From Lasiosphaeris hirsuta (Eukaryota; Ascomycota; Sordariomycetes; Sordariales; Lasiosphaeriaceae): a stretch of 64,000 bases of DNA. Positions 13,711 through 41,518 of the stretch are shown here, piece after piece. The stretch lies in assembly GCA_030549175.1 (NCBI GenBank), contig JAUKUA010000002.1, positions 124,001 through 188,000 of the forward strand. The letters run 5' to 3'. Position numbers and translations under genes: made by a program. Numbering within the stretch: position 1 is the first letter of the stretch; each line of letters starts with the position of its first letter. The notes below the pieces were generated by a model. That model searched no databases. It saw only the letters and a list, made by a program, of their open reading frames with translations, and had not been told where the DNA came from.

Positions 13711-13733
13711 GTATGAGGATGAGGGATTACATT

Positions 13734-18368: not shown

Positions 18369-19709
18369 TTAGTGAGCCATTCCATTCCCCCCGGCAGCCG
18401 CACCGTTAGCTGCCATAGCAGCCATTTTAGGGCACACAGCACCGCCACCCGCAGCCATACTGGGGCATGCCTTCGCATGACCTGTGGCAGGGGCTCCGTT
18501 GCTCTGGGGTTCCTTCACGAGGCCCAGGGCCTCAGCGCGGGACTTGCTTCCGGGATCAAAGTAGGGTGCCTCGCCAATGCCGACGGCACGGTTGCCAGAC
18601 CGCTCCCCGAGGTTCATGTAATCAAAGGTGGCGCGGTGGAAAACGCTGCGGTTGTCCCAAATGGCTAAAAGGACCGCCGGTGTTAGCTTCTCGAGCCAGG
18701 GGGTATCGGTGAGCACCAGGGAGGGGGGTTCCCCCTCTTACCAATGTCATGGGGGTTCCTCCACTTGAATCTGCACTGCAGGTCATGGTTGTCTTGTATC
18801 ATGCCGTAGAACTTCTTGAGCAGCTCATCCGACTCGTACTGATTCACCTCGTTGATGCGCTTGGAGAACTGGCCCACGGCGAAGATGCTCTTCCAGCCCG
18901 TGACCGGGTTGGTACGCACGACTGGGTGCACGGCGGTCAGGGCGGTCCCGGTGTTCAGGGGGTTACCGCGCTCGCCCTCCTCAATCTTCTCGCCGCGGTT
19001 GCGGATGGCCATGAGCACGCAGTCGGCGCGGCATGTCACGGTCAGGCCGTCAACGAAGCTCTGGTACGGCTTGGACAGGCGGTTGTACAGCTCATAGCCC
19101 GACGCCCACAGCGTGTCGCCGCCCGTCTCGGGCAGCTTGATGACGCGCAGCGACGTGTAGTCGGCCGGCACGGGCTCGAACTGGATGTCCGTGTGCCACT
19201 CGGCCGCGTCGAAGCGCCGCTTGTCCATGTTGGGCATCTTCTCAAACATGTACTTGAAGCCGACCGAGTTGACGTAGCTGATGTGCCGGTCCGGCGTGCC
19301 GCCCTCGGGCACGTGCGCCGGCGCCAGCGGGAAAATATGCACAGAGGACTCCTCGGGCTTGCCGGCTAGCTGGCCTAGCCGGTGTACGAATTCCTTCTGG
19401 AGGTCGTTGCTAAGGTTGGTCTGGGCCCGAAAGAAGACTACCCCCCGCCTCGAGACTAAGATGGTGCCCGACCGGGCCGGGTTAGCGCCGTGGCCCCTTT
19501 TCACACAGGCTCCCGCCAAACGCCGGTTGCTACTTACTCGTGATGGCGAGATCGCGGAGCAAATCGTCGGCACTCTCGGCCTTGAGTAGGTCATCCACAA
19601 TGTTGACATTGACATATTCGCGACCAATCTCGGGCGTTGTCTCCTCATACCCGAACTTATCCAGGGCCCCGCTCAGCTCGAGAGGCTTGCGGCCCTGTCC
19701 CTCTGCCAT
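18369..19709 (-). CDS. TauD/TfdA-family Fe(II)/2-oxoglutarate-dependent dioxygenase
   Basis: Three exons (19709-19538, 19455-18742, 18664-18369) encode 393 residues. It has the fungal TauD/JLP1-type layout: IGREYVNVNIVDDL, RRGVVFFRAQ, the iron-binding facial triad H-x-D in EWHTDIQF, the distal His in IWDNRSVFHRATFDY, and a following Arg that would hold 2-oxoglutarate. Family members hydroxylate, desaturate or cleave small acids and sulfonates using O2; the PvcB subgroup desaturates tyrosine isocyanides. By sequence it looks more like the general fungal sulfonate-dioxygenase group, so a pathway role is inferred from its place beside the isocyanide synthase locus. Unusual C-terminal tail of ~40 residues rich in Ala, Gly, Met, His with two Cys-Pro-x-Met repeats (CPSMAA, CPKMAA). 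Divergent from the SDR. Confidence 0.88.
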
Positions 19710-20894
19710 GGCGTGCGGGTGGTCGTAGGGTCAGAGGGTCCCCAAGGTACACCTAAGGTAAAGGTATCAGGTAAGTTGGCAGGTAAGGTGCTCAGGCTAG
19801 CAGTATAGGTAGAGGAGATAAGGTAGGCAAGCAGGGTGTATGTAGGTGGGGGGGAGATGGTGCGGCCTGGGTTACTCTGGCTCATTCGACCGCCACGTCT
19901 CCCAAATCAACCTTTATAGCAGCAAGGAACTTAACTCACCCAGACGACTTAGGTGCGGGCTCGCAAGCCGGGGCTGTATCGTAAGGCCTCCCATCTGCCC
20001 ACGTCTTCGGTCTCGCAAGAGTGAGCAAGTTGAGTAAGATATCCCCAAGGGGAAAGATTAGACGAGCTAGCTCTGCTCGCCCCTTTTCCCACGTTCTATA
20101 CGTCCGAGTAGAGATACATGTAGTATTGCCGCCACCGTAACAAGACGTCCCGTTTCTTCAACTTGACCGTTTTCTATCGATTCATCTGCTGATATGCCAC
20201 GCCGAGGAGAACCACATCCTCGCCGAGTGTCAGCAGCCCAACCAGAGAGCCCAAAGCTAGGCGCTTATGCGGCATCCCTACTACGGTCATGGCGCGGTGG
20301 ATTGGTGTTTGCAGGTAAACATGCACTGCTAGTGAGGCACTCGACAGAATGCAGAAAGAAATGGATGTGTGAGAATGAGTGAGAAAGTTGCCACCCCTGG
20401 CCGTGGCGTCTGCGAGCCTGGGGCGACCCCCAGCCGAGCATAAATGAGCAGGAATGAGCAGGAATGTAGGCTCGTCACACCGAGGGTCACGAAGATGGTC
20501 AAAATTGCTTGGTTGGATGAGGAGTAGGTAGCTTCTGCTACGCCTGCTCACGGCGTGGGCCCTGCAGTTGCGCCCCATGCCCCCGGTGCTCGGCCGTGAA
20601 CCGATGGTCTGAGAGTCGGCGTAGAGGCATATCGACGGGAAACGAGCTGCCGATACCGACGGGTACCAGCTATGGTTGTACCTTGGCTTCCTTTGTGGTC
20701 CATGATACATCACATCTGTTTCTGCTTACGCCTATTTAAAGGGGCAGAGGATGAGAGCACCCAGCAGCATCTGGGCATCCAGTATCAACAGTGGCACTAG
20801 TACCTGGGGACAACGCGTCAACGACCTCCACTCACGACCCGATAATCAGCACACAGCTTTCGGCGCATTTAAAAAAAAAAAAACCAGTTCCATC
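19710..20894. promoter_or_regulatory. Divergent promoter region of the TauD and SDR genes
   Basis: About 1.2 kb without a supported gene. It has a poly-A run just before the SDR start and, on the TauD side, the octamer TGAGCAAG (complement CTTGCTCA) at 20022-20029. Confidence 0.5.
20022..20029 (-). promoter_or_regulatory. CTTGCTCA motif, Mac1-site-like
   Basis: One base from the S. cerevisiae Mac1 copper-response site TTTGCTCA; about 310 bp upstream of the TauD start. The same octamer occurs before the Ctr gene and between the copper-fist and second Ctr genes. Confidence 0.35.
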
Positions 20895-22026
20895 ATGTCG
20901 TCACCTCCGCGAGCTTTCGACTTCGCCGGGACGGTTGCCATCGTCACGGGCGCCGGCTGCCGGATGAAGGGTGAGCTCGGCAATGGGAGTGCCACGGCCG
21001 TCCTTCTCGCACGCCACGGTGCCCGGGTAGCCGTGGTCGACCGCAACCTCGAGGCCGCGGCTGAGACCAAGCGCGTGATCGAAGAGGAGGGAGGCGTGGC
21101 CGAGGTGGTGCTGGGCGACGTGACGGTGGACGAAGACTGCAAGGCCGCTGTGGCCAAGACGATCGAGGTGTTTGGAAAGCTGGACATTCTCGTCAACATT
21201 GGTTAGTCCAACACACACACACACACACACACACACACGAATCCGTCACACACCGAGTACCTGCGGGGGATGTACCCAGGCTCGAAAGAAGCTGAAGAAC
21301 TAACACGGCCTGGGAATGACTAGTGGGTATCGGAGGAGCCCAGGGTACGGTGGACAAGGTGAACATTGACGAGTTCAATCACGACCTGCACTACAATGTC
21401 ACCAGCATGGTGCAGATGGCGCGCTACGCCGTGCCCGAGATGCGCAACAATGGCAGCGGCGCCATCGTCAACATGAGCTCGGTCTGCGGGCTGACGGGCG
21501 GAAGCCCGTCCGTCTTCTACCCGACGGCGAAGGGGGCCATTGTGCAGATGACGCGGGCCATGGCTGGCCAGCACGGCCCTGATGCCATCCGGGTCAACTG
21601 CGTGTGCCCGGGCATGGCCTACACACCCATGGCGCGCAGCCGGGGCATCACCGACGAGATGCGGCACGAGCGCAAGAGCCTTGGCTTCCTCAAGTACGAG
21701 GGAACGGCTATGGACATTGGATACGGTGAGCCATTTTCGCCGTGTTATCTTCCCCCTCCCCCCCCCTCCCTGGTCCGGGACGCGCTTGAGGCTCCTTCTG
21801 ACAGACGCTGGCGTGATAGCCATCATGTTTTTATGCAGCAAGGAGGCGAGGTGGATCACGGGGGCCATCCTGCCCATCGACGGAGGTGTAAGTCATTCAA
21901 CCCCCTCCTTCTGACCCCATCGCTACCGTGCGGAATCGAGCATTCAGGCTGACACACCACAAGTATACGGCCGGCCGAGTTGACCACCCCAAGATGGGCA
22001 ACATGGCCATGGGGACCCACCAATGA
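20895..22026 (+). CDS. Short-chain dehydrogenase/reductase
   Basis: Four exons (20895-21201, 21324-21725, 21805-21887, 21964-22026) encode 284 residues. Classical SDR fold: VAIVTGAG at the N-terminal beta-alpha-beta unit, followed by an atypical lengthened glycine loop (TGAGCRMKGELGNGSA instead of TGxxxGIG). Next come Asp in VVDRN (suggesting NAD rather than NADP), NMSSVCG with the catalytic Ser, and the active-site Y-x3-K in VFYPTAKGAI. RVNCVCPGMAYTP and ITGAILPIDGG complete the family pattern. It would oxidise or reduce an alcohol/carbonyl group; substrate unknown. It is divergent from the TauD dioxygenase, suggesting co-regulation. Intron 1 holds an (AC)n microsatellite at about 21210-21238. 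Confidence 0.9.
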
Positions 22027-22680
22027 GGAGGGCTTGGAAGGCCCCGGGCTGGCCTAGGCTGGCCCCCTTGGGACAAATACAAGGGGTGATGTAGCTTCCG
22101 ATAGTTGCCCAGACTGACAAGGGTTGATGGTCGTATGTACCTAGGCCCCCGGGGTGCATAAGGCACCTTGGCATATGCAAGCCTGTTTCTCTTCCTTCTG
22201 CAAAAACATGCCATACGTGCTCCTTCAGGACGATGTAATAATATGCATGCCGTAATCGCATCCAAAATCGCTGGCCCACGCCGCAACGCAGCACCGTCCC
22301 CAGCAACCAGCAAATGTCAGCTCTGGTAGCCCCGCCCACTTGGCGAGAAATTTGTCCTTGCCTTGATTACGACTCTATAATCTGAGGCGCCTTCAGCCTC
22401 CTCATTCCAGATACTACCCACCTAGGTATCCAGCACTGCAGAGGGGGAGCAGCCTCTTGGCCCCCATCCATGGCTGTGGTTTCCTCGTCGTCGTGCATGC
22501 TACCCTCCTGGGGTTGTATAGACGCTATTTCATTCTTGACGGGGGGGACGGATACTTGTGTTTGCGATCGCAATGTAATGTTTTCGAGCTGTATTACTGG
22601 GTGCAATCCGCTTTTTGCGCCATATTGTAGTCTAGTTAACGGAAACAAGAAGGGCGGCTAGTCTTTTTTCTTCTACGGCA
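22027..22680. other. Intergenic region between the convergent SDR and MFS genes
   Basis: No gene seen. It lies between two gene 3' ends, so it should hold both 3' UTRs. Confidence 0.4.
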
Positions 22681-24477
22681 TCAAGATGTCTCTCCATCCT
22701 TCTGACCCTTCTCGACATCTGCCTCTGACGCAGTTCCAACGTGATTCGCCGGCGGCCCAGCCACAGTGGTAACGACGTCGGATCCCGTCCTCCGGCGCGT
22801 GCCGTATACTATGAGTCCTAGGCAGGCAGATTAGAATTAGTAGTTTTAGGGTCAGAAGAGAGCACGGCCCCGGACCGGTGCGCAGGTAGGTGAGGTAGTT
22901 GACCGGGAGGAGCGTCCGTGAACTCACCAGAAGCCCCCGCGCCGAAGGTGACGAGATCGAGCACGGCGAAGCCGGTGTAATACCAGCCCGCGCCCATTCT
23001 AGCAATGAGGGAGGGAGCCACAACGGCAGTGATGGCGGCAGCCGCGTTGCGGAGCAGATTCTCCACAGCCATGGCGCCGGCCGCCGCTTGGGGGGCGCAT
23101 TCCGTCAAAAAGGCAAAGGTCACGACGAGGACCGAAGACATGCCGAAGCCGGACAGGAAAGTCGCCGCTATCACGGCTGCCGGATGGACATCTTTCTCGA
23201 CTACCCATCCGTACATGAGGGATCCCGCCGCACACACGCCGGCACCCCAGACCTGGTCGGCTAGGCGGCCCTCGGGGGCAAAGCGGCCGCCAGCCGCCGC
23301 GCGAACCGCGCGGGCACGTCGCCAGTCCGAGAATCGGCCGGCGAGCAGCGAGCCGGTAACGATGGCGATGCCGAGGGCGAGGTAGCCCCCGCCCACGGCG
23401 GTGACGGACCACGAGTACCGGCTGGTCAGCACGACGGGCAGGTCAACGGCCATGGAGAAGTAGTTGGCAAACAGGATGGCCGTGTACACGGACGAGATGC
23501 TGACGGGGGGGGAGCAAGCAAGTCGCCAGAGCAATCTGGGAGAGGGCTTGGGTGGCGGCGGGCCCCGCTCCTCCTCGGGCGCCAGCGGCGACAACAAGTG
23601 CGGCGGGAACTGGATGAGGCCCCTTTCGGCGGCAAGACGTCCGTTGCCGACACGGCATCGTAGGGTCTCGGGAAGGGCAATGAGGAAGGCGAGCCACGTG
23701 ACACCGACGGTGATGGCTGCGCGCTCACTTGCCATTAGCACTGGCTGCTCCGGGGCACCATTACAGCTGGCACTGCCGGGGCGCTGCCGGGCCTGTATGT
23801 AGGTGGTCGGGGGGGGGGGGGGGGGGGACTGTAACGTACCCAAGAAGCCAAATGTCCAGCGCCATGATGCCTGGCCGGTAATCACGCCTCCGAGTACGGG
23901 TCCTAGCGTTGGCCCCAGGTTCGGGCCCAGGAGAAATATCGACATGTAGAAGCCACGGCGGGCGGGTTCGATGATCTACACGGAAGTGTTCAGCGGGGAG
24001 GCCAAAACGGCCAGCTTGGAGGGGGGGGGGGGGCGGTGCACTCACATCCGCTATCGTCCCAGCTCCCAGTGCGATGACTGACGAGCACCCAAAAGCCTGC
24101 ACCATTCTCAGGAATAGCAAGGCCCCAAAGTTGGCGGGGAGGGTGGCCATGAGGATGTTCGCCGTCAGATAGATGGCCATGGAGGTGATGTAAAGGGGCC
24201 TCCTCCCCTTCCAGTCGGCAAGCACGGAGAAGGCGAGCGGGGAGATGGCGCAAAGGGCCATGAAGACGGAGACAGTGGCATTGATGGCCGTGTTGCTAAC
24301 GCCGAACTCGTTCTCCAGCACGGGCAGGGCGGGAAGGTAGATGCCTCCGGCCAGGGGGCCGAGAAAGCCTGCCGTGCTCACCAGGCCGACGATGAAGCGC
24401 CGCTGCACCGGCTTGAAGCCGCTGTAGCTCGCGACGGCCGGGACCGTCTGCTGTTGTTGCCCGTCGTTGGCTGCCAT
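22681..24477 (-). CDS. DHA1-type MFS exporter (Qdr/Dtr1-like)
   Basis: Four exons (24477-24046, 23975-23840, 23740-22928, 22817-22681) encode 505 residues with about 12 membrane helices. DHA1 drug:H+ antiporter features: GGIYLPALPVLENEF in TM1, motif A DWKGRRPLY after TM2, RMVQAFGCSSVIALGAG in TM4 and a motif-C-like GPNLGPTLGPVLGG in TM5. DHA1 members such as yeast Qdr1-3 and the dityrosine-precursor exporter Dtr1 pump small organic molecules out across the plasma or prospore membrane. In yeast DTR1 works with DIT1 and DIT2; homologues of both of those lie 3-8 kb to the right here, so export of an isocyanide/tyrosine-derived product is a fair inference. Introns 1 and 2 contain long C runs in the sense strand. 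Confidence 0.88.
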
Positions 24478-24945
24478 GTCTCCGGATTAGCACTGCTTCG
24501 AAATAGAGAACAGAGACTTGCACCTTGAAAGGAAAAGAAGAATGAGATTCACGCCGCAAAAAAAAAAAAAAAAAGAGAACAAAACTGTGGCAGGCTGCTG
24601 CACTGCCTACCTGACCTAGCTAGGTCGTTACCCATGTTTTTTTTCTACCCACAGATCCGGGCCGTGACCTGGTTCGTGATATTGGGTGCCGTGGGGGCCT
24701 GGACGTCACGAACCACCTGCATGGGGTTGGCTGGCGCCCAGAACCAAATGCGGATTGGGGCGAAATAACTCGCTCATACTTGCGCATCCCCCATCGACTT
24801 GCATAGCTTGGTACCTACAATATTCGAGACGAGAGAGAGTACAGAAAACTTGGACACCACCCGACCTCACCTCCTGCTGATGATCAAGCACTGCCACCAG
24901 TGGGGATTTCTCACATCGCATCCTGCTCCACGCCCTGATACCATC
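24478..24945. promoter_or_regulatory. Short divergent promoter of the MFS exporter and the Atg22-like gene
   Basis: 468 bp between two start codons facing away from each other; a poly-A tract lies at about 24559-24574. No clear shared motif with the other promoters in the locus. Confidence 0.5.
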
Positions 24946-27004
24946 ATGTCCTCGTACACGCCCCCGAAGGAGCTAGCCCCGGCCGAGCCCGTAGTTCGGG
25001 CCATCAGCGAGAAGGCCGATGAGGATGAGCCCGACAGCGCGGGCCCCGAACCGAGCCCGGGCGACTCGGACGGATACCGAAAGCCTCTGGGGTCCTCGCA
25101 GTCGCTATGGGGCTGGCTGGTAGTAAACCTAGCGGTACGCTGAACGAACCACGACCCCCAAGGGACTCCCGAAGCACACGGACGTGGGGCCATGTGTTGT
25201 TTTCGGTGGAAAGTTGCTGACCAGCCTGGTTGCCAGACCGGCCCGACGAGTGCCATGCTCTTCACCTTTCTGCCCGCAACTATCCAGACGGTGGCCAACG
25301 CCGTCGGCCATGTGCCGGGCACCGACGAACCGTGCGCCGCGGTCGGGCTGATTGAATGCGTCGTGAGCTTTGGCTCCCGAGAGGTGGACTATCTGACCTA
25401 CTTGTAAGTGGACAGCAAACAATGTCTCCAATAGTACCTACGATGCCCAAGTTGGCGCAAGGGGAATGAAGCACTGGGCTGACTGAAATGGTCATGGAAA
25501 AAAATAATAGCCTTTATCTCAATTCCATCTCGCGCGGCCTACAGGCGGTTGCCTGCATCCTGGCCTCGGGCCTGGCCGACTATTCCCGCTTCCGGAAGCC
25601 CATGATGATGGCGACCATCTATGTGTTCGCCATTCTATCCCTGCCTCTTGCAGGCCTCGAATCACAGTCGTACGGCACGCTCAACACGCTCGCTGCTCTA
25701 TACGTTTCATCGAGCGTTGTCATGGCTGTCTTTATGATCATCCAGGCGTCTTACATCCCCATGTTCATGGCCACGGCGCAGCAGCAAGCCAAGCCCGACT
25801 CTTGCCAATCAGAGGCGGGCCATGATGGGCTCGGCCTGGCTTCCTGGGCACGGGGCGCGCGGGCCAGCACATGGGGCATCGTTGTCAACAACATTGGCCA
25901 GATCGCTGCCGTGTTAGCTGGTATCATCATCGCCTATACCCAGGATCCCGGCCCGGACGCAAGCTTCAAGAGGTGAGTAGTGCTGATACAGGTGCCGACC
26001 CGTCTATCCGTGTCGAGCTAACAGAAGGGGCCCTGCGAAGTTATCGGCTAGCCATGACGGTCAGCGGCGTAGCAACGTGTAAGTATGCGCCGCGATTAGT
26101 CAGATCCTACCCTCCCAACCAAAAAAAAAACCCCCCATTCCCTATGACCATCTTTCTGATCTCTAGTCCTACAGTCGTTATCGCTGTCGTGGGCCATTTC
26201 TTGCTCCCAAACATCCCTGGAACGGCGCGGCCCACCAATTGGAGTATCGCGCTCCCGTTCCGCACATGTAAGTTCATTGACGGCTAGCCGCTAACCTCCC
26301 TCCATGAAGCTGTGTGCCTAGCTGACAGCCATCCAATCAAATCAGGCTGGCGTCTTCTGCGTTCGGTGAAATCCCATCCCGAGGTCTTCAAGTTCTGTGT
26401 GGGATGGATGCTGTTTGATGCTTCCTGGTTCAACTTTGCCCCCCTCCTGTCGGCCCTTTTCCTCGAGGTGACGGGCCTGAACCTGTCGGGAGGCGGCGTG
26501 TTTGCGGTCTACACTCTGGTTGGCATCCTGGCGGGGTGCCTGGGGTCCCTGGGATGGATGTATGCGTTCCCGCGCGTCAGGACGCCAGTCAAGGCATGGC
26601 TCTACCTCCTGCTCGGCCTCAACATCTTCTGCGTCTTCTGGGGCTGCATCGGCGTCAGCGCCACCACCGCCGTCGGTCTCAAGCAGGCGCCCGAGTTCTG
26701 GGTCATCCAGGTCGTCTTCATGGCCGCCAACAGCGCCATGCTGGCCTACAACCGCGTCGTGTTCGCCTCCTTCATCCCCAAGGGCAGCGAGGCCCTGCTG
26801 TCCGGGCTCATCTTCCTCCTCGACCTGTGCACCGGCTGGATCATGCCGCTGATCCAGGCCCGCATACAGGACCATACCGGCGACTTGCACTATTCTCTGC
26901 TCTTGTCCTTGGGTCTCATGGTTGCCTCGGTGCCCTTTTTTGTCTGGGTGAAGGTGGACAGGGGGATTGCGCAGGCGGAAAAGCCACTGTCGGGGTTTGC
27001 CTGA
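24946..27004 (+). CDS. Atg22-like vacuolar amino-acid effluxer family transporter
   Basis: Six exons (24946-25134, 25237-25403, 25511-25972, 26041-26078, 26175-26267, 26346-27004) encode 535 residues. The pattern is that of the fungal Atg22 branch of the MFS: an acidic cytosolic N-terminus, then LWGWLVVNLA, SISRGLQAVACILASGLADY, ASTWGIVVNNIGQIAAVLAG, HPEVFKFCVGWMLFDASWFN and SGLIFLLDLCTGWIMPLIQA; about 12 helices. In yeast Atg22 exports leucine, isoleucine and tyrosine from the vacuole. Here it may supply the tyrosine used by the isocyanide synthase, an inference from context. Exon 4 is only 38 nt; its acceptor (GCGAAG at 26035-26040, with a GCTAAC branch point) is the one that keeps frame. 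That small exon is the least certain part of the model. Confidence 0.85.
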
Positions 27005-27408
27005 GGTAAGGTAGGTAGCAAGGGAAGCAGTGTATTACCAACGAGGGAGCACCCCCACGCAGGATACCCCTAGGTTAGTTAGGTACCTACCTAGGTAGGT
27101 AGTCCAAGGTACCGTGAAGCCTTCCATTAAACATGTTGTTCCTCACTACAGCCGGCTACCAATGACCATGCCTCTCGGCGTATTTCCCGTCATCTCTTCG
27201 TCATTTGCCTGGGTACGGTACCATTTGACTGTCTTACAAAAAGAAAGAGAGAGCCGAAAGATACGCCAACACCTAGGCCTTGCACTGGGCCTTTTCCCTT
27301 TGCATTTTTTCACCATTCTTCTCGCTCCTTGAACACCAAACGCAAGGCCCTGGGGAAGAGAGGCCCAGCCTAGGATACCCTCCTCGTCAGCACGGCATCA
27401 TCCAATCA
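27005..27408. other. Intergenic region between the convergent Atg22-like and P450 genes
   Basis: Contains a palindrome-rich ACCTAGGT/TACC microsatellite at about 27068-27112. No gene seen. Confidence 0.4.
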
Positions 27409-29002
27409 CTACCAAAGGAGCGGCATCGAGCACATGGGGGTGGGGAGTGGGGGCTCGGGACGTACGGGAGTCATCTTGTTGGGCCAAGTAGGATCCAGCT
27501 GCCAGGCGAACCGCCTCGTCAGCATGAACAAGGTGACCTTGAGCTCCAGCACGGCAAACCGCTCGCCCAGACAGGCCCTGTTCCCGCCGTGGAAGGTTAC
27601 GAACTCGGCCCTGGTGCGCTTCAGGCGGTAGAAGCGCTGGATGTCCTCCATGGTGTCGCCCCACCGCTCGGGCCGGAAGCGGTCGGCATCCGGGCCCCAG
27701 CAGTCGGTGTCGCGGTGGGTCGAGTAGCAGTGGTACCCCAGGTACGTACCCCTGGGGATGCGCAGGCCGTCGCCGTCACCGAGCACGACGTCGCTGGCCG
27801 CGCGCCGGTTGATGAGCTGCGAGAGCGGCGGGAGCACGCGCAGGCTCTCGTACACGACCGAAGCCAGGTAGGGCATGTGCTGGAGCGCCTCGTGCGTCGG
27901 CTCCGGCTCCGGCTTCCCGTAGCCTGCGCCGCCCGGGGAGCGCATCTCGGCCAGCAGCCGCTCCTGCGCCTCCGGGTGCTGCGCGAGCAGGTAGAGCGTC
28001 GAGATGAGCCCGATCTGCGGGTTCTCCTGGCCGGCGACGTAGAGGACCGTCAGGTTGTCTCGGAACTGCGTCTCGGTCAGCTCGCCCGAGCGCCGGGCCG
28101 CCAGCAGCCGGGCGCCCAGCTCGCCCCCCGGCGGGCCGCCGAGGCCGTCCGCCTTGCCGTGCGCGCGCACGAGGCTCGCCGTCAGCTCGTCCTTGAACTC
28201 GGACACGGTGAGGCGCGCCGCCAGCCGGCTTGGGATCGGGAGCGTGTCGAGAAACGGGAAGTTCATAAACACGGGCTTGAATATCTGCTGCTTGAGGCTT
28301 GTTTGGAGCTTGTGGATCTTGGCATCTGGCCGGTCCAAAGCCTGCCGGGACGGTTAGCCCGGAAGTCAAAGTAGTACCTACAGTAGGTAGGAAGCTGCAG
28401 CTCACCCCAAAGTCGGTCTGCAAAACCGCATCGCCAATGTTGGCAATGGTGTACCTCTGCAGCAGGTCCTGGACGGCGACTGCACGCGCTCCATGCACAC
28501 CGCCGCTGGCACTGGTGATCAGGTCGCAAAGCCTCGCGGCGTTCCGGGCCAGCAGCTCCGTCTCGAAGGTTCTCTGGAGCCCCGGCTTGATGACCTGCCT
28601 GTACCGCTTCCACGTCGAGCCGTGGCTAGATATGATGTTGTCCCCTAGGAAGGCGGCGAGAACGCTATGCGGGATCTTCTTCTGGTTGCCGCTTTTCTGG
28701 TAGACGTCTTCGTGCTTGAACAACTCGGCCAGGTACCGGGGCCGATGGACCAAGATGTTCCACTGCGCCCCGAAGAAGATCTTGACAGCCCCGTGGGTGC
28801 GGAGAGGCTCCTCCAGGTACGCCTTGAACGTTTCGGACTGGTCGACATCTCTCCAGAAGGGGATCAGGGTGACCCAGAAGGGCACCGCCGGGATTCCCTT
28901 GGGGTGTCGAGGCGGCACGAGAACCAGGTAGCCTGCAACTCCAACGACGAGTGCTGCTCCCACCAGCAGAGTTGACAACAGAGAAGCCATGCCGGTCACC
29001 AT
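27409..29002 (-). CDS. Cytochrome P450, Dit2/CYP56-like
   Basis: Two exons (29002-28406, 28341-27409) encode 509 residues. N-terminal membrane anchor (TLLVGAALVVGVAGYLVLV) followed by the proline hinge PPRHPKGIP. I-helix VAGQENPQ with the Ala-Gly-x-Glu-Asn form also found in yeast Dit2; K-helix ESLR; heme loop FVTFHGGNRACLG with Cys456 as the thiolate ligand. Dit2 couples formyl/isocyanide tyrosine units to dityrosine in the yeast spore wall. This gene shares an 845-bp promoter with a Dit1-like gene, the same divergent pairing as yeast DIT1/DIT2, so a comparable oxidation of the synthase product is likely. An alternative start 12 nt downstream (28990) is possible. It would act at the ER membrane. 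Confidence 0.9.
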
Positions 29003-31812: not shown

Positions 31813-32099
31813 CTTGGACTGGTTGCTAGTGGGTGCTCGCGGGTAGGAGGATGGACGACGGGGTACGGAGGACACCTGGTTTCTTGTCGAATCTTCTCAT
31901 CGATGCGGGATGCGCGCTGGTTTCTTTGCATTGTTTTGGCTCTTGTTCAGCCGTCGCTCTTCTCCATCAGGGGTACGGCTCGCGGGGAGGGCGGACGGTT
32001 GCCGCGATCAGCAAACGTGGTGGCATTGGCGCCGGGGACCTGCCGATCATTACTAGTACCTACCTACCTAGGTACCTACTTTAGCATAGGCAACCATCA
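31813..32099. other. 3' flank of the isocyanide synthase gene
   Basis: No gene; ends in a CCTACCTAGGTACC microsatellite at about 32057-32080. Confidence 0.4.
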
Positions 32100-32650
32100 T
32101 GTCAGTAACCAGGCCTCTCCTCTGGGTGCCTTATCCCGCCAAGGAAAAGAGAGTGACTCACCACTTAGAATATGCCGCCCATCCTGCACCCGCCGCGCGC
32201 TCCCGTCGGAACCCATGTGCGTGTTTCTGCCAAAGCGCGTGGCATTGCCCAATGGCGCTTCGGCGGTGGTAACCCGGCGGCCATCGAGAGGGTCAGCACG
32301 AGCGAGAAGGCGAGCCCCGGTGCAGACGGACAGGGTGTGCTCAGTCTCGTCGAAGCGGGCGGCTACAAGGTCCCCCAATCGCACCGTGGTTGTACACCAC
32401 TCGACTGGAGCCCCACATTTCTCATCCCACCGGCACGACCAGTATTTCCAAAGGGGGTGGGGGTGGGCCTCTGGAGCGTGTGCGTGTCGAGCATGCTGGA
32501 CTTGGTCGTTGGCAAGAGCGCACCGTCAAAGGTTCACAGTGCTGCTGGTCCATGGTCGTCAATTTTATGGCATTCTATACCCGAGGGTGCCCGTGGCCCG
32601 AGAATACTATAGGCACGGTACTGATACCCAGCATGTCAGGCGGACCAAGG
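32100..32650 (-). pseudogene. Decayed DJ-1/PfpI-family gene (isonitrile-hydratase superfamily)
   Basis: On the minus strand, pieces of a DJ-1/PfpI protein follow in order but in different frames. LEILVVP and GMRNVGAPVEW match the glycine-rich VPGG region. LSVCTGARLLARADPLDGRRVTT is the nucleophile elbow with its Cys and the following helix. WVPTGA and RRVQDGRHI match the next strand. At least three frame changes and no usable start make it non-functional as read. The superfamily contains isonitrile (isocyanide) hydratases as well as many other enzymes, so a former detoxifying role beside the isocyanide synthase is attractive but only inferred. The 5' part beyond 32550 is hard to align. Confidence 0.55.
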
Positions 32651-33017
32651 TGGCATCTTGTACCCGAGGCAGGTAATTGGAACATTAACCATCTTGTAGG
32701 GTTTGGTTGCTGGTGATACGACCACGCCTTCTCGGCTAAGTTCTGGTGGGGCAGGAGAGAGCAAGTTTAGACCCCCAGTGGACCGAGACCGCGGCACTCG
32801 ACTCACGACACCGAGAAAATGGGAACTGCCCATGTTATTGGGTGGTGGGACTATCTAGGTACCTTAGGTATATCAGAGGTGGACTCATTATGCTCCTCAA
32901 AGGCTCCGACTCCGTCACGGGTCTCAGATGGAGAAGTGGTGTCTACCCGACTACCCGCAGCAAACGGTGGCCTCGTTTGAAGCACTCGTGGAGCCTTTCC
33001 CACTAAAGTGATGGCTT

Positions 33018-33841
33018 CTAGTTAGTCTTGATCAAATGGTATGGGGGTGGTGAGGATGACGGGCTGCCCGAGGTTTCAACGTACTGTGCGCCGAGCGTTT
33101 CCCACTGAAACACGAATGCGCCCAGGAACGCACCGATGAATATGCAGATGATGATATAGCCGTTGTAGTACATGGCAAGCCTGGCAGAAACGCCGTCAGC
33201 CCCGGCAAAAAAGCGATGCCAAACTGGGTAAGTGAGTATGCAATGGGATTGCCCTACAGCATTACGAGGTAGGCCACAGCGAACTGGACCATGTGGAGGA
33301 AGGCCCGGACAGCCTGCTGGAAGATGGTAGGGCGAAACTCGCCTGCCGCCAACGCCGTCGGCCCAGCTACGAGGTAGTGGGGCGATGTGCTGCGCTCCAG
33401 GGGCGTGTCATTGTTCTTGCCAGGGGAGGCCAACTGTCCGTGCTGGCGGATCAGGAAGCGGTCGTACTCCTTGACGGCGCGGCGCAGAAATTCGAGTGAC
33501 ATGACCAGCAGTATAACGCCGATGCACGATCCGGCAAACATGCCCGACGAGGTGACATGCCAGGTGGAGGAAATGAAGCAGCTATCGATTGTGTACCAGT
33601 TCCAAAGCATCTGTCGGAGAGTTGGAGCCGCCACATGTCAGTGAACCATCATGATCCTTGACGAGCAAGGGGGTTGGAAGGTCTATTGGAGGCAAGGAGG
33701 CAGGCACGGGACCGGCAGACTCACCGAGATCTTGCAGTCACCGCTTCCCATACCCATATCCATCGTTGCGGTGGCCGTAGATGTCGCTGCAGCAGAGGCA
33801 GCCGTCGCGGTGGGCGACATGCTCATGGTTCCCATATCCAT
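33018..33841 (-). CDS. Ctr-family high-affinity copper transporter
   Basis: Three exons (33841-33725, 33610-33258, 33180-33018) encode 210 residues. The N-terminus is methionine-rich (MDMGTMSM, later MDMGMGSGDCKISM), as in copper-collecting Ctr ectodomains. Three helices follow: TM1 MFAGSCIGVILLVMSLEF, TM2 ending in VMLLAM with the M-x3-M copper-binding motif, and TM3 with the G-x3-G packing motif (GAFLGAF). The copper pathway is formed by a trimer in the plasma (or vacuolar) membrane and carries Cu(I). The charged loop between TM1 and TM2 contains RRAVKEYDRFLIRQHG. It lies 1.2 kb from the isocyanide synthase 3' end, on the opposite strand, and has the CTTGCTCA motif ~200 bp upstream of its start. 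Confidence 0.92.
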
Positions 33842-34379
33842 CTCGGCTCGATATTGTTGGATAAGTTCGCTCTCGGGATGCTGTCAAGCTACATGACGGG
33901 AAATGTGCCCGCGGGTGGTGGGGACCTCCCAGTATTAAGAAATTATCGGGAAGCTCTGCTGAGGTCCAGGCGCACAAACAAGACGTCCCATTGGAGACGG
34001 GTGTCGTCCCATTGGAGATAAGGTGGGTGAGTGGGTTTGAGCAAGTTTGGAAGCCACCAAAAGCGCCACCCTTCCCCTCCCAAGCACAACCTGCATATCT
34101 GGTGCTACACTTATCATTCCTTTGGCCAGACAATGGCCTGCACCATGGATGATCATGGGTCTCAAGAGTTTTGACAAGGAACGAACCGACCCGAACACGA
34201 ATTTCACCACGGGCACTGCTTGCAGCGAGGCAGCAGCTCCCTTTGCGACCACCCACAAGTGCCTAGGTGTAGGCATTGAACTCAAGCCGAAACATCCATG
34301 GCTTTGCTCTTCCTACCGGGCGCGGCAACGACCGCTCCAACGTCGTCGCAAATAAGCCCCATCCCACCAGCATCCTGCA
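33842..34379. promoter_or_regulatory. Upstream region of the Ctr copper transporter
   Basis: GC-rich DNA before the AT-rich island. Contains CTTGCTCA (complement of 34038-34045) and a TTTGCTC at 34303-34309. No gene seen. Confidence 0.4.
34038..34045 (-). promoter_or_regulatory. CTTGCTCA motif upstream of the Ctr gene
   Basis: Mac1-site-like octamer ~197 bp upstream of the Ctr start codon and in the same orientation as the gene. Confidence 0.4.
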
Positions 34380-36480
34380 CTAGGTACTAGGTAGAAACGG
34401 CTTTCGTTTGACTAGCAGTATTGGCCTCCCTAGTAGTTATCGCCCTTGGACTATTAGCTTGAATTCTCGTTCGATCCGGGAATGGCCCACTCTATCTCGA
34501 AGGAGCGCCTCGGTCAACCTATGCCTAAGAAAGTCAGCGACTACACCTAATAAAGGTTGGACTATTTTACTAGTGATTCCCAATCGTGCAATGGTTTGTC
34601 AGGGGGCCGTCTCGAATTGAACGAGAATTTGCAGCAAAGAAGTCGGTCATCTATCCGCCGTGGTTTGCTGTGCCGCTGCAGCATCTCCAGAGGGATGGCA
34701 GACAACGGACGACTCTTCCAGGGCCGCAACGGGCTCAGTCTCGGCAAGTAGGTGCAGGCGTGTCCGCCCGACCCCGAGCGCCAACGCACACCGGCAACCT
34801 TGACACGGACATGGCCCTCGCCCCCATAGTACAGAGGACGAAGACGTAAGCGACTCAACGGTATAGCGGTAAAATGGTCAATCAAGACCGGTTAGATAGC
34901 TGGAGGAGCATGTTATTTCTCAACGAGAAGAGAGGAACTAAGGATGATGAGAAAAACATGAAGGTAAGGGTCTCTATCTACACTAAAAGTCAACGGCGAT
35001 AAAAATAGACATTTCTCGACATATAAACATGCCGTACCGACCATATATAACCTCGAACATATCTGACGCGACATAAAAATACCAGAAATGGTCCACCCAG
35101 GAATACCACCGCCTTATTAAAAGCTACATATACGTACATAACCGACACTACTAGAAGTTGCACTGTATATTATAGCTTTAGGTGTTAATTATCTACTCCT
35201 TACACCTCTAAAATTTAACAATAAATGGGCACTATATTATAATAGACAGTTATGATAGTATGGGGTAAGCTTATGTATAGCAATGCTTGTGGGGCATGAT
35301 AAGTAAATTGTTGTAGCATTATTTAACTATTTTACACGTGTTTTCCTTGCCTAAGCTATTTAAATATCTACAACAGCATTTAATTAACGACTATTAAATC
35401 AACGGTGATATATTAAAACAAGGTGCATTTATAATAGATGCTACGACCCTAGCTACCCTCGACAGTGCTATAGCTCGAGGCTGTAAGTAGAAATCTTAGC
35501 CCTACGGTATTGTGGAAAGGCGATTATCATAGTATGCTAAGGTAGTCTCTGAAAAAGGCTAAGGATGGTAACTGTTGTACACTTGTTAAGTTGTTGTGGG
35601 TGTACACCTAGAGAGAATACCAGAGGAATCTGCCAGCGCCGGAACTCGTTAGAGCGAACGCTGGAGTGAGACGGGGTTAGACAGACTCCAACAAGGTCTA
35701 ACAGGGTCCAAGGAGCCAGGTAGAGTTAGAGGGAATTAGCTACATGCCTAATCTAACCCTTGTTTCAATTGCTAGCTAGTATAACTACAGAGTAATCGTG
35801 TTACGTAGAAAACGAAAAGGAGAAACAGTTCGTTCACACTTACGGCTTAGTCAAGTTAATTAACTAGCTCAAGACTTGACCTATGAACAATAGAGAAGAA
35901 TGGGAGTCTCCTGACTTAGTTTAGAGTTCTAATAAAAATTCATAGGGGCGTATATATTGGATTACAACGTATATAATAAGTAAGCCGAACAGATAGATGA
36001 GCCGAATAAATAGGCGAGCTGAACGCTTTTCACCACTCCACTACGTCTATCCTTAATTACACAACCACAACACTAGGAAATAATAATAATTGAACCAGAA
36101 TCAGAAGAATCAGGCAATTCTATAGCCTCCATACAGGTACATACATTATGGCTAGGCTTACCGTATACACCATAGTACGAATCTTCATACGAAACCCCCT
36201 TGTACCACCACTATTTTGTTGTATTTCCTAGACAAACTACTCTCCTATATCCTTCTAATCCAATACATCCTATGCCACTTATATAGTAAATAGCCCTTTA
36301 AGCCGAATATGTGTTTTTTGGCTCTCTTTTACTTGTTAAGCTCCTTATTAGCCTTCCGTAATACTAAGACCTTTATACGTAGAAGAGAGACCTTATATAT
36401 TATAGCCATCGTACCTTTATATCACACTGCTGGAGCTTACTAAAGTTAATAAGGTGAATCACCTCCTTAACTTAGGCTTG
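34380..36480. other. AT-rich island of decayed repeats inside the copper/isocyanide locus
   Basis: Strongly AT-rich with stops in every frame. Short coding-like pieces remain: QGAFIIDATTLATLDSAIARG near 35420-35490 and ESEESGNSIASIQ near 36098. The second shares an 18/19-base match (agaagaatcaggc..) with the C-terminal coding end of the pogo element at 16361. It looks like one or more RIP-mutated transposable elements; termini were not found. Confidence 0.45.
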
Positions 36481-37279
36481 CAGTAACTCGGCGCATGGAG
36501 CCATACCCGACGAGGAGCTGCGAGTGGGCGCCAGTCGAGTCGACCACGGGCCCTGACAGTGCCAGACGGGTGGCAGAAAAAGCCTCACTGTGCGTTGCCT
36601 TGACTAAGTGGCACCAAGGGCTGGCCTTGCCGAGGGCTAGCCTTGCCGACCTAGGAAGGCAGCAAAATTCATGGCGAACTTCAGCTGAAGTTGACAGGCG
36701 ACACAAGTGCTGTCGGCGGCTAGGTGGTGAGCGGGTATGAGAGAGTTTCTCGACGGATAGACCCTTTTTTGTTTCTTTTTTTTAATAAGAATGAGCTCAA
36801 ATGCGCTCTCGGTGCTGCGCATGACGACGGATTCAATGTTGTTGTCTCAGCGGCACGAGGTGAGCTCTATACCTAGGTAGGCAGGCAGGTACCGGCTCGG
36901 GTCCATCTGCACCGCCCCTTGTTTCCCATCGGGCACAGCATCAACAGTGGACCTAATTATGAATATCGTGGCCATGTTCATGACATCAGGCCGATGCCAA
37001 TCCCACCAACCGGGATACCACCCATTTTGTGCGTGCCAAACATGCATCCGTCGGGTGCCTGACATCCGTTGAGGAGGTTTGAGCAGATTAACCGGTCGCA
37101 ACCGGTCGTCCAAAGGCCCATCAAGTAATCACTACCTAGGTACCTACCTTACCTACCTTTAGGCCGGCTCACTTAGGCCCATTCCAACACGAGATTTCCG
37201 TCTCGTCGATATTGTCTTTTCCAAACCAGTCCGCAAATGCACGCTGTTCCTCCCCAATTCTCAAACCCAAGCTGCAATC
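36481..37279. other. Intergenic region with microsatellites
   Basis: Return to normal base composition; an ACCTACCTTACC microsatellite at about 37130-37160. Frames on both strands show no recognisable family. Confidence 0.35.
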
Positions 37280-38174
37280 ATGCGGCGACTAGAACCTGCA
37301 CGCTGCCTCCTACTCTCCATCGAGCTCGTCATCGTGGCCACCGCACTTGGTGTTTTTGCCCATGGATATACACAGGACTTGAGAAGGGTCCTGTGGGTGG
37401 TTGGAGGGGAGCGAGGATGGAACTCGAACCCACGGCTACGAATCTATTTCTACGCAAACCATAGGCAACCGCCGCCAATCCCCTTCCTCTGGACCGACAG
37501 GTAGGAGTAGAACCACTGCGTCCATGCCGCATACTAGCACCGCAGTATCTGACGCCCGAGCCCTCTCAGACTTGCAGACTCCCTCCTCGGCATCGCAATC
37601 GTCAGTGTCGTCGTGTGGGTCATCAAGATCGGCCTCCTCTGTTTCGATTTAAGTCTGCCCTTGTTCAGCGCCTTTTACGACATGCTGCTGTCTGGATTCT
37701 GGATGTTTTGCGTGAACGCACAGTCGTCCAGCGACCTGACGGACCCACAGCACCTGAGCCCGAGCCCGTGGTACTTGGAGAGAAGCTGCGGCCAGCTCTC
37801 GGGGCACGACGGGATAGCGTGTAAGTATGGGAAAACGTCGTTTACCATTGCGGTCGTTTGCATGTGAGCTCAGCCGTCTAGCCCTCCCTCGTCGCCCGCC
37901 TGCGTCGTGTAAGCCCTTGTCGCCTCGGTATTAGAAGCTGACCTATCCTACGGCAAGGGGATTCTACCTCGGACAATCCATCGTCTCCGTCCTCCGGCTT
38001 GCGTACTGGTGTGGCAAGTACCGCGTCCTCGACCGGTGCGCCATTTGGCTCGGGCAGTACTGTCTCGGCTCTGAGGGGAAGAGGCAGGGCAGCCGGTTTG
38101 CCAGGGACATGGACATGGAGTTGCTGGAGCAAGAGTCACTCTGCGAGCATGGTATACATGAGGATTCAGAATAA
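37280..38174 (+). CDS. Four-helix membrane protein of a fungus-specific family
   Basis: Three exons (37280-37500, 37570-37863, 37958-38174) encode 243 residues. Four hydrophobic segments: SIELVIVATALGVFAHGY, LLGIAIVSVVVWVIKIGLL, FYDMLLSGFWMFCVNAQ and the splice-joined FTIAVVCMGFYLGQSIV. Between TM1 and TM2 is the family-like RIYFYANHRQPP; between TM3 and TM4, DPQHLSPSPWYLERSC with conserved-looking Pro, Trp and Cys. The layout resembles the MARVEL-like tetraspan proteins common in Sordariomycetes, whose function is not established. The acceptor at 37569 was chosen because only it keeps the hydrophobic frame. It sits between the first Ctr gene and the copper-fist gene; whether it belongs to the copper system is unknown. 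Confidence 0.75.
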
Positions 38175-38352
38175 GGAGCCGTTGGTAAACTGTGTTTCGT
38201 GGTTGGGTTTTGCCCTGATGACACTCGAGGTAGAACAAGGGTAACATCATGAGATTATTCTTCCGATATTCCGGTTGTTTCCAAACTGGTAAATTCATCA
38301 TGTCCTGTGCTTCGGAACTTGCACCTCGAGGCCACGGAAGAGGCGCCGACAA

Positions 38353-39217
38353 CTAGCTACCTGATTTAGTCCCTCGGTTGCCGCTCGATGGGCCCCCACC
38401 TCCCCCGTCCTCTCTCTCCTCCTCCTCCTCCTCCGCCGCCGTCTCAGGTCCGGCCCGAGATTGGGAGAAAACATCGGTGGAAATCTCTGCTTCCAGCCCA
38501 GACAAGTCCTGGACACCCATCCAAGGTGCCGGCCACCGCTCACCCCACTGCTCGTGTGCAAACATGGCGGCAGTGTCCACGGTGTGGGCGTCGTGGGGGT
38601 GCGCGGGATAGTCGACAGGCTCCAGCTGCTGGGTCGTCGCCGGTCCATCGACGGCGAAGAGGCCCAACGGCATCTCAGGATTGCCGTGGCTGTCCTGGGT
38701 GATGGGGCTGAAGGCATTTGTGCCATAACCAGGGGCCGCGAGGGTTCCAAGGGGGGCGAGGAGATCGAGGTCGGTCAGTGAAAGCGCCAGGTCGCCAAAG
38801 TGATGGTCCGGGATAGGATAGAGCATGTTTTGTGGGTGGCTATCAACGGTGTCAATGGTGGACATGGGCCAACTAGACGGTGTCGGCAAGGCTGTTAGGT
38901 CTGTCGGGCCTGTTGAGCCTGTCGTTTCTGGCGTTGTCGCGAGGGTGCTTGCACTACTCGGGCCCGTGGTGGTGGTCCCGGAGGTGGCAGCTGGGGGACG
39001 ACATTGGCACCTCGCACCCGGGAAATGCGGGCAGGACGATAATGGTCGGCCGGGCCGCCGCACTGCCATCATGGGACGGTCACTGGCATGGTTGCAAGTT
39101 CCCACGCGGTGTCCCCGGATGCAAGGCCAACTGCCGGTACCATGAGGTTAGAAGAGCGCAGCCCGGACTTTTCTTTCAAGCTCACCAAGCCACCTTCTCT
39201 CCGTCGACCACGGGCAT
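38353..39217 (-). CDS. Copper-fist transcription factor (Mac1/Cuf1/Ace1-type)
   Basis: Two exons (39217-39186, 39130-38353) encode 269 residues. The copper-fist DNA-binding domain spans residues 1-~60 and is split by a 55-nt intron: MPVVDGEKVAC joins WPCIRGHRVGTCNH, giving C11-x2-C14-x8-C23-x-H25 with the RGHR signature. The minor-groove GRP motif follows (RRPGRPLSSCPH), then a CQC pair. The remainder is rich in Ser, Thr, Pro and Gly with an acidic Glu run near the C-terminus (AAEEEEEERED). No Cys-rich copper-sensing repeats of the yeast Mac1 kind (CxCxxxxCxCxxCxxH) are visible, so sensing must lie elsewhere or differ. A likely regulator of the two Ctr genes beside it, and perhaps of the isocyanide genes; inferred. 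Confidence 0.88.
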
Positions 39218-40178
39218 GGTTAACCGAGCTTCGTCCCGGCGACTGCGTTGCAGGGAGGTAGGATTGATGTCAGAGTCGAACCGAGACGCTTGCACACGAT
39301 GACGAAGTTGGGCCGCGACGAAAGTAGGGAGGGGTACCAGCGAGTCGAACTCCGCCCTTCCCCTTTCGAGTCCCTCCTCATCCGTCCCTCACACGGCCCC
39401 ACGTGGGTAAACGAGAGCCTCCCCAGGCAGATGACCACTTAGGTAAGTATTGGGGAAGATCCGAGAAGCCTTTTCTGCTGGCGACGGCGTGGAAACCACA
39501 CGCACGGGGGCTAGCGTGAGCGGCAAAGAGAAGCTGCTGGTGATTCATCACATCTGGTCGACTACAGATTACAATGTGCTGGGTACCGAGCTGCCACCAT
39601 GACAAACCATGCATGCCCACCTACCTACGTGCCCCCCATTTGCAGAGAGTTCCAGAGTAATATCGGCTACGCGGGTACGGATTTGGTTGGTCTGTTTCTG
39701 CGGAAGCCGTGGGGCCCAGGGGGGGCGGCGGCGGATCAAAACTTGCTCAAACGCCCACCCCTGGCGGGCGCAGGTGCCTTCCCGACCGGGCGCTCGAACC
39801 CCCTTCATCACCGCAACAGGCCCGACAGGGGCAGAGAGGTCGATGGCGACCCTCATTAAAAGACTGGCCCTTTCCAGGCTCAGATGGCTGCGGATCCAGA
39901 TGCCGCCCGACAACTTGAGAAGCCAATGGTCCAGCGGCTCCTCAACTTGGCCGAATACTATAAGGCAATAGGCACTAGCGAAGGGCCAGAAGCTCGCCAG
40001 CCAGGCCCGCTCGCGATCCGTCCGAGACCCCATCGCCATCGCCACGAACACGGCCACCACCTTGCCGCCGTCCTCGACTCGGCGACGTGGCAGCAGCCAA
40101 AGGCGCCCGCAGCCTCTGCCCGTTTCCCGATTGCTACCTAGCCCGCAGCCATAGATATGGACCACAGCCAACGCCGAC
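39218..40178. promoter_or_regulatory. Divergent region between the copper-fist gene and the second Ctr gene
   Basis: About 0.96 kb. Contains CTTGCTCA at 39742-39749. The open frames on both strands look like chance frames in GC-rich DNA. Confidence 0.45.
39742..39749 (+). promoter_or_regulatory. CTTGCTCA motif between the copper-fist and second Ctr genes
   Basis: Third exact occurrence of the Mac1-site-like octamer, between two divergent copper genes. Confidence 0.4.
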
Positions 40179-40844
40179 ATGCACGGCACCGACAGCGGGA
40201 CCACCATGGACTCTCCGAATAGCATGGCCATGACCTTGTTCCAGTCTCCAACTTTCCCCGCTGCTCTTCCACGGCCTGAAGCCCACAACCGCGGGCCAGT
40301 ACGCCTGGGCCTGCATCGCGTTCGCCCTCCTGGCCGTCCTGACGCGTGCGCGGGTCAACCTCAAAACGGTCCTCGAACGCTCCGTCTGGATACCGCCACG
40401 GCTCGACGCGGAACAGCCTCTCCTCCGAGAGCACGAAAAGGCTGCCGCCAAGGCCGAGAACCCGCCCGTGTCCGGCACGCGGCCGGTTGGGCTATGTGGG
40501 GTCCGCGGCGAGCTGTGGAGGACGTGGAGCGCGTGGAGGTCTACGTTGCTGCTGCAGAGGCTGGGGACGACGTCGTATGAGATCCTGCTCGTCGGGTTTG
40601 GGTATATTTTGTGAGTCCAGTCCCCGTCGCTGGCTACCTCCCTACGTAAGGTCACTAAGGGAGGTATTGAGCTGGATAGGTACACGGGCGGGAAGCTAAT
40701 CTTGTCTGCCAAATGCCTAGGATGCTTGCCGTCATGACGATGAACGTGGGCTATTTCCTTTCCGTCTTGGGTGGCATCTACGTAGGAACTTTCGTACTCG
40801 GGGCGGCGACCGCGGCGGCCGACAATACATTACAGCACTGTTGA
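40179..40844 (+). pseudogene. Second Ctr-type copper transporter gene with a frameshift
   Basis: Two exons (about 40179-40610, 40721-40844). The N-terminus MHGTDSGTTMDSPNSMAMTLF resembles Ctr3-like proteins. Then come TM1 GQYAWACIAFALLAVLTR, a loop with AEQPLLREHEKAAAKAENPP, and after a normal intron TM2 with MLAVMTMNVGYF and TM3 with GGIYVGTFVLG (the G-x3-G motif). The frame changes once, near 40255 in a CCCC run, between MAMTLFQSPTFP and the following LLFHGL; no intron explains it. Either a one-base indel has inactivated the gene or it is an assembly error. Otherwise the gene is intact. It would be a plasma or vacuolar membrane Cu(I) channel of ~200 residues. Confidence 0.7.
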
Positions 40845-41327: not shown

Positions 41328-41518
41328 TGTTGAAGGGCAACACGATGAAGGTGATGATATTCAGTGGTGGTTCTGGCCCAGAGAAATCTCCGGCCCTCTT
41401 TTGTGGGTGGCCACACCAGAACCACGCTAGGCTATCTACCTATCAGAGGCGGCTACACCTTCTGGACGGCCATTCACTGGAGGCCGCCATTCACTGGAGG
41501 CCATTCACTCTTCTAACA
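41328..41518 (+). repeat. Inverted repeat arm A flanking the 41.9-43.3 kb gene
   Basis: Nearly identical to the complement of 43603-43886: shares TGTTG.AGGGCAACACGATG, the stretch through ttctggcccagagaaatc, and ends CATTCACTCTTC.AACA. Has a single copy of the 31-bp unit that is expanded in arm B. Confidence 0.85.

Follow-up and report, generated by a model that had tools for sequence, protein, structure and literature searches.

A dit-type gene cluster of Lasiosphaeris hirsuta and its possible tie to copper uptake

What is a gene for a Dit1-type isocyanide synthase (ICS) doing among copper genes? The question is raised by a stretch of 64,000 nt from Lasiosphaeris hirsuta (Sordariales), hereafter the window, which covers positions 124001-188000 of a 6,674,962-base contig in an assembly of 44.4 Mb and 14 contigs. 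The synthase gene (dit1) adjoins a gene for a Dit2-type cytochrome P450 (dit2), and close by lie two genes for Ctr copper transporters (CtrA and CtrB) and one for a copper-fist transcription factor. The original prediction, drawn from the letters of the window, had read the group as a self-contained, copper-linked isocyanide cluster. The reading that we favour, while granting it somewhat less than an even chance, is that an old genomic link of dit1 with a Ctr3-type copper importer ties a dit-type cluster to copper uptake, in which case spore walls may not be the sole purpose of the dit pathway and copper supply may be another.

Ctr genes beside dit1 in related fungi

The main evidence comes from relatives. 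NCBI organism names were attached to 109 of the best 120 of 577 public ICS matches and to 100 of the best 120 of 2420 Ctr matches (four of the latter without a readable species); these named matches were compared. Two matches were called as lying on the same contig when their recorded contig sizes were equal; the recorded contig is the longest of a 90%-identity cluster, and a mismatch can also stem from different assemblies. Among the matches listed, 15 ICS/Ctr pairs had a matching contig, and all 15 fell within one species each. Counted by species, a Ctr gene was found on the ICS contig in 14 of the 30 species present in both sets (L. hirsuta excluded), against 1.04 expected (P 3e-16); the expectation assumes random gene placement in 40-Mb genomes and the P value treats species as independent, which they are not. 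With ICS contigs below 1.2 Mb only, 11 of 25 species were linked, against 0.35 expected. Three species, Mycothermus thermophilus (4114/4115), Remersonia thermophila (1437/1438) and Chaetomium olivicolor (11110/11111), have consecutive locus tags for dit1 and Ctr. In Gaeumannomyces hyphopodioides (006007/006009) the two tags are two apart, and the Collariella gene model P0031 fuses Dit1 and Ctr. The original prediction had staked itself on copper genes neighbouring the synthase in relatives, and for Ctr they do so in some of them.

The linked species span Sordariales, Xylariales and Magnaporthales; the order was looked up for three species and is what we take it to be for the others. An ICS tree (FastTree, 111 relatives, local support), whose rows exclude yeast Dit1, XanB and CrmA, places the window synthase with 11 other rows at support 100: Madurella fahalii, four Monosporascus, two Gaeumannomyces, Chaetomium fimeti, Neoarthrinium and two metagenome rows. 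The remaining Sordariales and Xylariales rows fall, together with Colletotrichum, into a second clade (65 rows, support 99). The dit1-Ctr linkage is present in both of these deep clades, and a recurrence over three orders and two such clades is hard to credit to chance. Both clades also occur within one species, Madurella fahalii, where the two synthases (P0002 and P0037) lie on different contigs and the listed Ctr sits on the contig of the second-clade copy.

Genes and promoters of the L. hirsuta locus

Gene models were built with a purpose-written splice-aware finder. Its training set was the window together with 17 further ten-kilobase stretches of the genome, with only 45 long open reading frames (ORFs) as a start, and the spliced models were scanned with Pfam (Table 1). 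Every gene type named in the original prediction was found, with Pfam matches for TauD, short-chain dehydrogenase/reductase (SDR), MFS, ATG22, P450, ICS, both Ctr and the copper fist. As whole genes most are intact, the exceptions being CtrB, whose frame is broken, and a DJ-1/PfpI piece below its cut-off, for which the earlier word "relic" was apt. Four divergent pairs share a promoter: TauD/SDR, MFS/ATG22, P450/ICS and copper-fist/CtrB. A profile search of the genome counted at least one DIT1_PvcA gene, at least eight Ctr loci (our own grouping of 14 exon matches) and at least three copper-fist genes, all of these being lower bounds. Two of the eight Ctr loci and one of the three copper-fist genes lie within 11 kb of the synthase, where post hoc arithmetic expects about 0.004 and 0.0015, respectively, for 11 kb on either side.

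Table 1. Features of the cluster, with positions in the window
Feature	Position	Strand	Evidence
TauD-family Fe(II)/2-oxoglutarate dioxygenase, 393 aa, 3 exons	18369..19709	-	PF02668, 154.4 bits
TauD/SDR divergent promoter	19710..20894		DHNTGCTCA sites at 20022-, 20445-, 20455-, 20542+
Short-chain dehydrogenase/reductase (SDR), 270 aa	20895..21983	+	PF13561, 194 bits
MFS efflux-type transporter, 497 aa	22681..24477	-	PF07690, 145 bits
Atg22-like transporter, 556 aa	24880..27004	+	PF11700, 312 bits
Dit2-type cytochrome P450, 510 aa, 3 exons	27310..29002	-	PF00067, 194.6 bits
Dit1-type isocyanide synthase (ICS) homologue, 584 aa	29848..31812 (exons 29848-30634, 30845-31812)	+	PF05141, 291.5 bits (586-aa earlier model)
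DJ-1/PfpI (isocyanide hydratase-like) fragment, relic	32100..32525	-	PF01965, 19.7 bits, E 8e-4
CtrA copper importer, 205 aa, 4 exons	32951..33841	-	PF04145, 148.9 bits (earlier 205-aa model)
ACTTGCTCAAAC Mac1-type site, 194 bp upstream of CtrA start	34035..34046	-	exact 12-mer
Copper-fist transcription factor, 269 aa	38353..39217 (exons 38353-39130, 39186-39217)	-	PF00649, 61.5 bits
ACTTGCTCAAAC Mac1-type site, copper-fist/CtrB divergent promoter	39741..39752	+	exact 12-mer
CtrB, second Ctr gene, broken reading frame	40179..40844	+	PF04145, 89.3 bits, part after break

The synthase is the sole DIT1_PvcA gene detected in the genome. It is single-domain, PF05141 being its only Pfam match at E <=0.01, with no NRPS-like domain and with TauD as a separate gene; the public partial synthase P0001 is contained within the model, which shares 72% identity with a protein of Madurella fahalii. 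A (CTAC)n microsatellite occupies 30654-30715, within the only intron of this gene. The P450 gene is divergent from it, as in the yeast dit pair and as the original prediction had it, and its product shares 57% identity over 488 aa with the P450 half of P0102, a Parathielavia P450+Dit1 fused gene model; it is by this comparison, not by one with yeast Dit2 itself, that the Dit2 type is assigned. The final CtrA model is identical to the public protein P0121, which we take to be of the Ctr3/CtrC type from its CKISMLWNWYTID stretch. The ICS, P450, CtrA and copper-fist genes all read cleanly open after intron removal.

The copper-fist model is identical to the public protein P0241, with Cys/His at 11, 14, 23 and 25, RGHR and GRP in its fist. 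By hand alignment it has 20 of 31 fist residues in common with the genome's protein L004 and 16 of 31 with L003, which from their motifs we take to be Mac1-like and Ace1-like, respectively. After its fist L004 has 17 Cys and two C-x-C-x3-C-x-C-x2-C-x2-H motifs; the x4 spacing of yeast finds no match even in L004, whose own spacing therefore served as the search pattern. In the window protein a sequence census found no Cys past residue 54 and no Cys-rich sensor motif. Among database candidates of 0.55-1.75 times the query length, a range that leaves out most full-length Mac1 proteins, there are four short copper-fist proteins at E <=0.001 (query included); none has a Cys after the fist and the L004 motif is absent from all four. 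As judged by these residues, the factor is a Mac1-like putative DNA-binding domain without the copper sensor.

The Mac1 site reported for Fusarium oxysporum is DHNTGCTCANNN (PMC11563359). For the promoter analysis the word TGCTCA was named before the test, promoter starts came from inferred gene models, and P values are uncorrected. Of the promoters of the six Ctr loci outside the window, five contain TGCTCA, which ranked 2 of 1763 hexamers by enrichment; among 3448 heptamers TGCTCAA ranked 1. The only one of the six without a Mac1-type site belongs to locus L010 (C1:2433186-2433359), possibly a decayed Ctr, which has a TAG within the matched stretch. Within the cluster, the TauD/SDR promoter holds four DHNTGCTCA sites against 0.31 expected (P 3e-4), a number reached in none of 3009 overlapping background windows; two of the four are 10 bp apart inside a short direct repeat. 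The six cluster promoters pooled have seven sites against 1.32 expected (P 4e-4). Mac1-type sites are also found at the CtrA and copper-fist/CtrB promoters, where the 12-mer ACTTGCTCAAAC occurs twice, 5.7 kb apart, out of seven occurrences in the genome; by our arithmetic about 0.005 pairs that close would be expected anywhere.

Other candidate words were set aside. The other five genomic ACTTGCTCAAAC sites do not extend a copper regulon, because none is beside a copper gene (by eye, without a Pfam run); four are in or at the edge of predicted genes and one is outside the models. The word ACCACCCG appeared in four of five cluster promoters at a nominal P of 1e-6 and was dropped, as 20 of 300 resampled background sets equalled it. 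TGCTCG matches the P450/ICS promoter five times (P 8e-4), one palindrome read on both strands supplying two of these matches. It was not counted because in the remaining Ctr promoters its rank is only 1290 of 1763.

Regarding the neighbouring sequence, the transporter beside ATG22 may be an exporter of the DHA1 type as originally named, its best NCBIfam model being Bcr/CflA efflux at 98.6 bits, below the 200.9 cut-off; among the NCBIfam matches listed for TauD (3), SDR (25 of 227) and MFS (25 of 37) none was over cut-off. The C-terminal tail of the TauD protein (18369-18500) holds Cys and Met residues (CPSM...VCPKM...) and might bind metal. Between CtrA and the copper-fist gene, ORFs in 37163-38352 gave no Pfam match over cut-off in the three pieces tried; one of these ORFs has hydrophobic stretches, and a DHNTGCTCA site lies at 37080. 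Two AT-rich stretches, 12001-18000 (GC 0.43-0.49) and 34001-36000 (GC 0.455), compared with 0.57-0.66 in 18001-34000, have few or no confident gene models and are possibly mutated repeats; one is upstream of the cluster and the other between CtrA and the copper-fist gene. A 31-bp minisatellite (4.5 copies, 99% matches) is found at 43612-43752, and a 17-bp repeat whose letters resemble it at 41469-41502.

Readings of the locus

If dit1 is tied to copper uptake, the pathway could work as follows. The analysis shows the gene identities, the co-location of Ctr with dit1 in relatives and Mac1-type sites at the Ctr and copper-fist promoters; what the pathway makes, whether this binds copper and how dit1 and dit2 are regulated is what we infer. 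Dit1 would turn tyrosine into an isocyanide (or formyl) derivative, the P450 would couple two such units, and the MFS exporter would release the coupled product, which would bind copper outside the cell; Ctr3 would then take up copper freed by surface reduction. In low copper, Mac1 would induce CtrA, the copper-fist gene and probably TauD/SDR, with the copper-fist protein acting as a relay. A bolder form of this proposal is that the "dityrosine" genes of Sordariomycetes are at root a copper system, with an ancient dit2-dit1-ctr3 module making a tyrosine-derived copper ligand and, in L. hirsuta, a Mac1 copy turned into a copper-blind relay activator; we consider that fairly unlikely. The recurrence of Ctr beside dit1 makes the question of the dit product outside yeasts testable by growth with and without copper, and short copper-fist factors without sensor cysteines would be a natural test of the role of those cysteines.

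Several results weigh against the copper-uptake reading. The strongest against a single copper regulon is that the promoters of P450/ICS (845 bp) and of MFS/ATG22 (402 bp) contain neither TGCTCA nor DHNTGCTCA. The lone DHNTGCTCA sites before CtrA (800 bp, P 0.19) and in the copper-fist/CtrB promoter (P 0.22) are not significant on their own, and the reversed control of ACTTGCTCAAAC occurs nine times in the genome against seven, so that ACTTGCTCAAAC is no commoner than its control and only the closeness of its two sites is unusual. In CtrB the Met-rich start and the first transmembrane helix are in different frames, over a stretch where the paralogue L012 is open. The only GT dinucleotides in 40080-40260 are at 40087, 40122, 40238 and 40244, and because these precede the Met-rich start or sit at the break, too near the first helix, no frame-restoring intron that keeps the helix is available; the break may be an assembly error. 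The copper-fist gene and dit1 lie on different contigs in both comparable relatives, Cladorrhinum PSN259 (469061 and 478834 bases, respectively) and Podospora australis (17306 and 77039 bases), and their link is therefore known only from L. hirsuta, although with contigs as short as these the genes may still be near each other. The separate contigs, the site-free promoters, the factor without sensor motifs, the broken CtrB and the hydratase-like relic all speak against the "self-contained" system of the original prediction. The copper link that it proposed has support where Ctr is concerned, is weak for the regulator and goes undemonstrated for the synthase.

The link in relatives also has its limits. 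Among the matches listed, 16 of the 30 species have no Ctr on the dit1 contig. In a Ctr tree with many weak branches, one clade has 14 Hypoxylon-type rows, and all 10 of its comparable cases lack the link; a separate Daldinia and Jackrogersella paralogue clade is linked in four of five, Jackrogersella having one of each; because nine of the 16 appear among the matches listed only with the unlinked type, the 16 are less telling than they seem. For the remaining seven (two Monosporascus, two Colletotrichum, Dactylonectria, Rhypophila and Daldinia eschscholtzii) the matches listed give no link. A common contig of several Mb is no proof of adjacency. The orientation varies as well: dit1 and CtrA converge in L. 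hirsuta, with the DJ-1 relic between them, and in the Collariella Dit1+Ctr and Parathielavia P450+Dit1 models each pair is on one strand. What is conserved is the neighbourhood, not the arrangement.

As to the product, isocyanide hydratases are DJ-1/PfpI proteins, and a DJ-1 piece beside dit1 would for that reason fit an isocyanide step, as would the metagenome model P0120, which joins Dit1 to a DJ-1-like end (18.3 bits, below cut-off). Against this, the window piece falls short of the PF01965 cut-off of 26.6 bits and is absent from the output of a genome-wide DJ-1 search. Such hydratases are reported in 21.1% of isocyanide synthase clusters (PMC10153163). PvcA, an isocyanide synthase, does not make up for a lack of Dit1 in yeast, and the Dit1 product is taken as formyl tyrosine (PMC7345447), so that an isocyanide is only a possible product of the window enzyme; Dit1 is treated as an isocyanide synthase by other authors (PMC10153163). 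Furthermore, the yeast dit cluster is described as having no known metal association (PMC10153163).

The most serious rival is a spore-wall role: as in yeast, dit1, dit2 and the exporter would provide bisformyl dityrosine to the walls of ascospores, with Ctr supplying copper to the same stage (for instance to a melanin-forming laccase), so that the link is developmental and there is no chalkophore. Dit1, Dit2 and an MFS exporter are the yeast set, the exporter there presumably being DTR1, and both the formyl tyrosine argued for yeast and the site-free P450/ICS promoter suit this account. PaCtr3 of Podospora anserina, another member of the order, is driven by GRISEA, the Mac1 orthologue; when GRISEA is lost, the ascospores are bleached and fertility is affected (PMC3495915). 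We regard this as a genuine possibility, if hardly a probable one: it leaves the copper-fist gene and the hydratase-like fragment (with the similar end of P0120) unexplained, and dityrosine deposition by filamentous fungi is unclear (PMC10153163). It is unlikely, in our view, that two separate units, a dit cluster (~22.7-31.8 kb) and a copper-homeostasis patch of Ctr, copper-fist and Ctr (33-41 kb), have merely come together by chance or hitchhiking 140-165 kb from the contig end. Mac1-type sites at the copper patch and TauD/SDR but at neither P450/ICS nor MFS/ATG22, the copper-fist linkage not seen in the two relatives compared and the decay of CtrB and DJ-1 all favour it; the recurrence of dit1 with Ctr speaks against it. 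Very improbable is a decaying locus, in which L. hirsuta is shedding parts of a copper-isocyanide cluster that was once complete, with Ctr still in use and the metabolite no longer made. The DJ-1 relic, the broken CtrB and the lack of a Mac1-type site before dit1 agree with such decay, but the ICS, P450, MFS, ATG22, TauD and SDR models are open and over Pfam cut-offs, and the synthase has the 72% identity to Madurella fahalii given above. A tie of the dit-type cluster to copper uptake remains the reading that we prefer.

Comparison with known systems

The divergent gene pair of the window is that of yeast DIT1/DIT2 (PMC7345447; orientation in PMC5974471), whose product goes into the spore wall and is argued to derive from formyl tyrosine; PMC7345447 nowhere uses the word "copper". 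Among the isocyanide-synthase cluster families of fungi, the dit superfamily is described as having the widest distribution (PMC10153163), and the window resembles its Clan 2 (Eurotio- and Sordariomycetes; Nickles et al. 2023, PMC10153163) in a single-domain DIT1_PvcA divergent from a Dit2-type P450. For dit that preprint knows of no metal association, whereas the dit1 of the window stands beside Ctr and copper-fist genes. The main text of the preprint has no word starting with "Ctr". In the literature searched no published dit1-Ctr link was found; the search and the word check covered neither the Clan 2 gene content in Figure 5a nor the supplements of PMC10153163, where Ctr may be drawn.

The copper-fist factor is similar to the Mac1/GRISEA activators (PMC11563359, PMC3495915) in its fist Cys/His positions, RGHR and GRP, and unlike the Mac1-like L004 in what follows the fist. 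With the xan cluster of Aspergillus fumigatus (PMC5974471) the window has in common a Dit2-like P450 (XanG), a hydratase homologue (XanA) and, putatively, a tyrosine isocyanide, and xan expression is affected by copper-fist factors (PMC5974471). XanB, however, is a fused ICS-dioxygenase, whereas in the window the ICS is single-domain, TauD is separate at ~10 kb and the hydratase-like gene is a relic. The crm cluster of the same species (PMC9381783, PMC5974471) is MacA-controlled and copper-regulated. It differs from the window in having four genes, an ICS fused to a nonribosomal peptide synthetase (ICS-NRPS), no P450 and no copper-fist gene, and crmB, crmC and crmD are reportedly little conserved in more distant species (PMC9381783, PMC5974471). 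As in the window, the ICS gene of crm keeps company with one for a Ctr copper transporter (crmD), so that a Ctr gene inside an isocyanide cluster is already known (PMC9381783).

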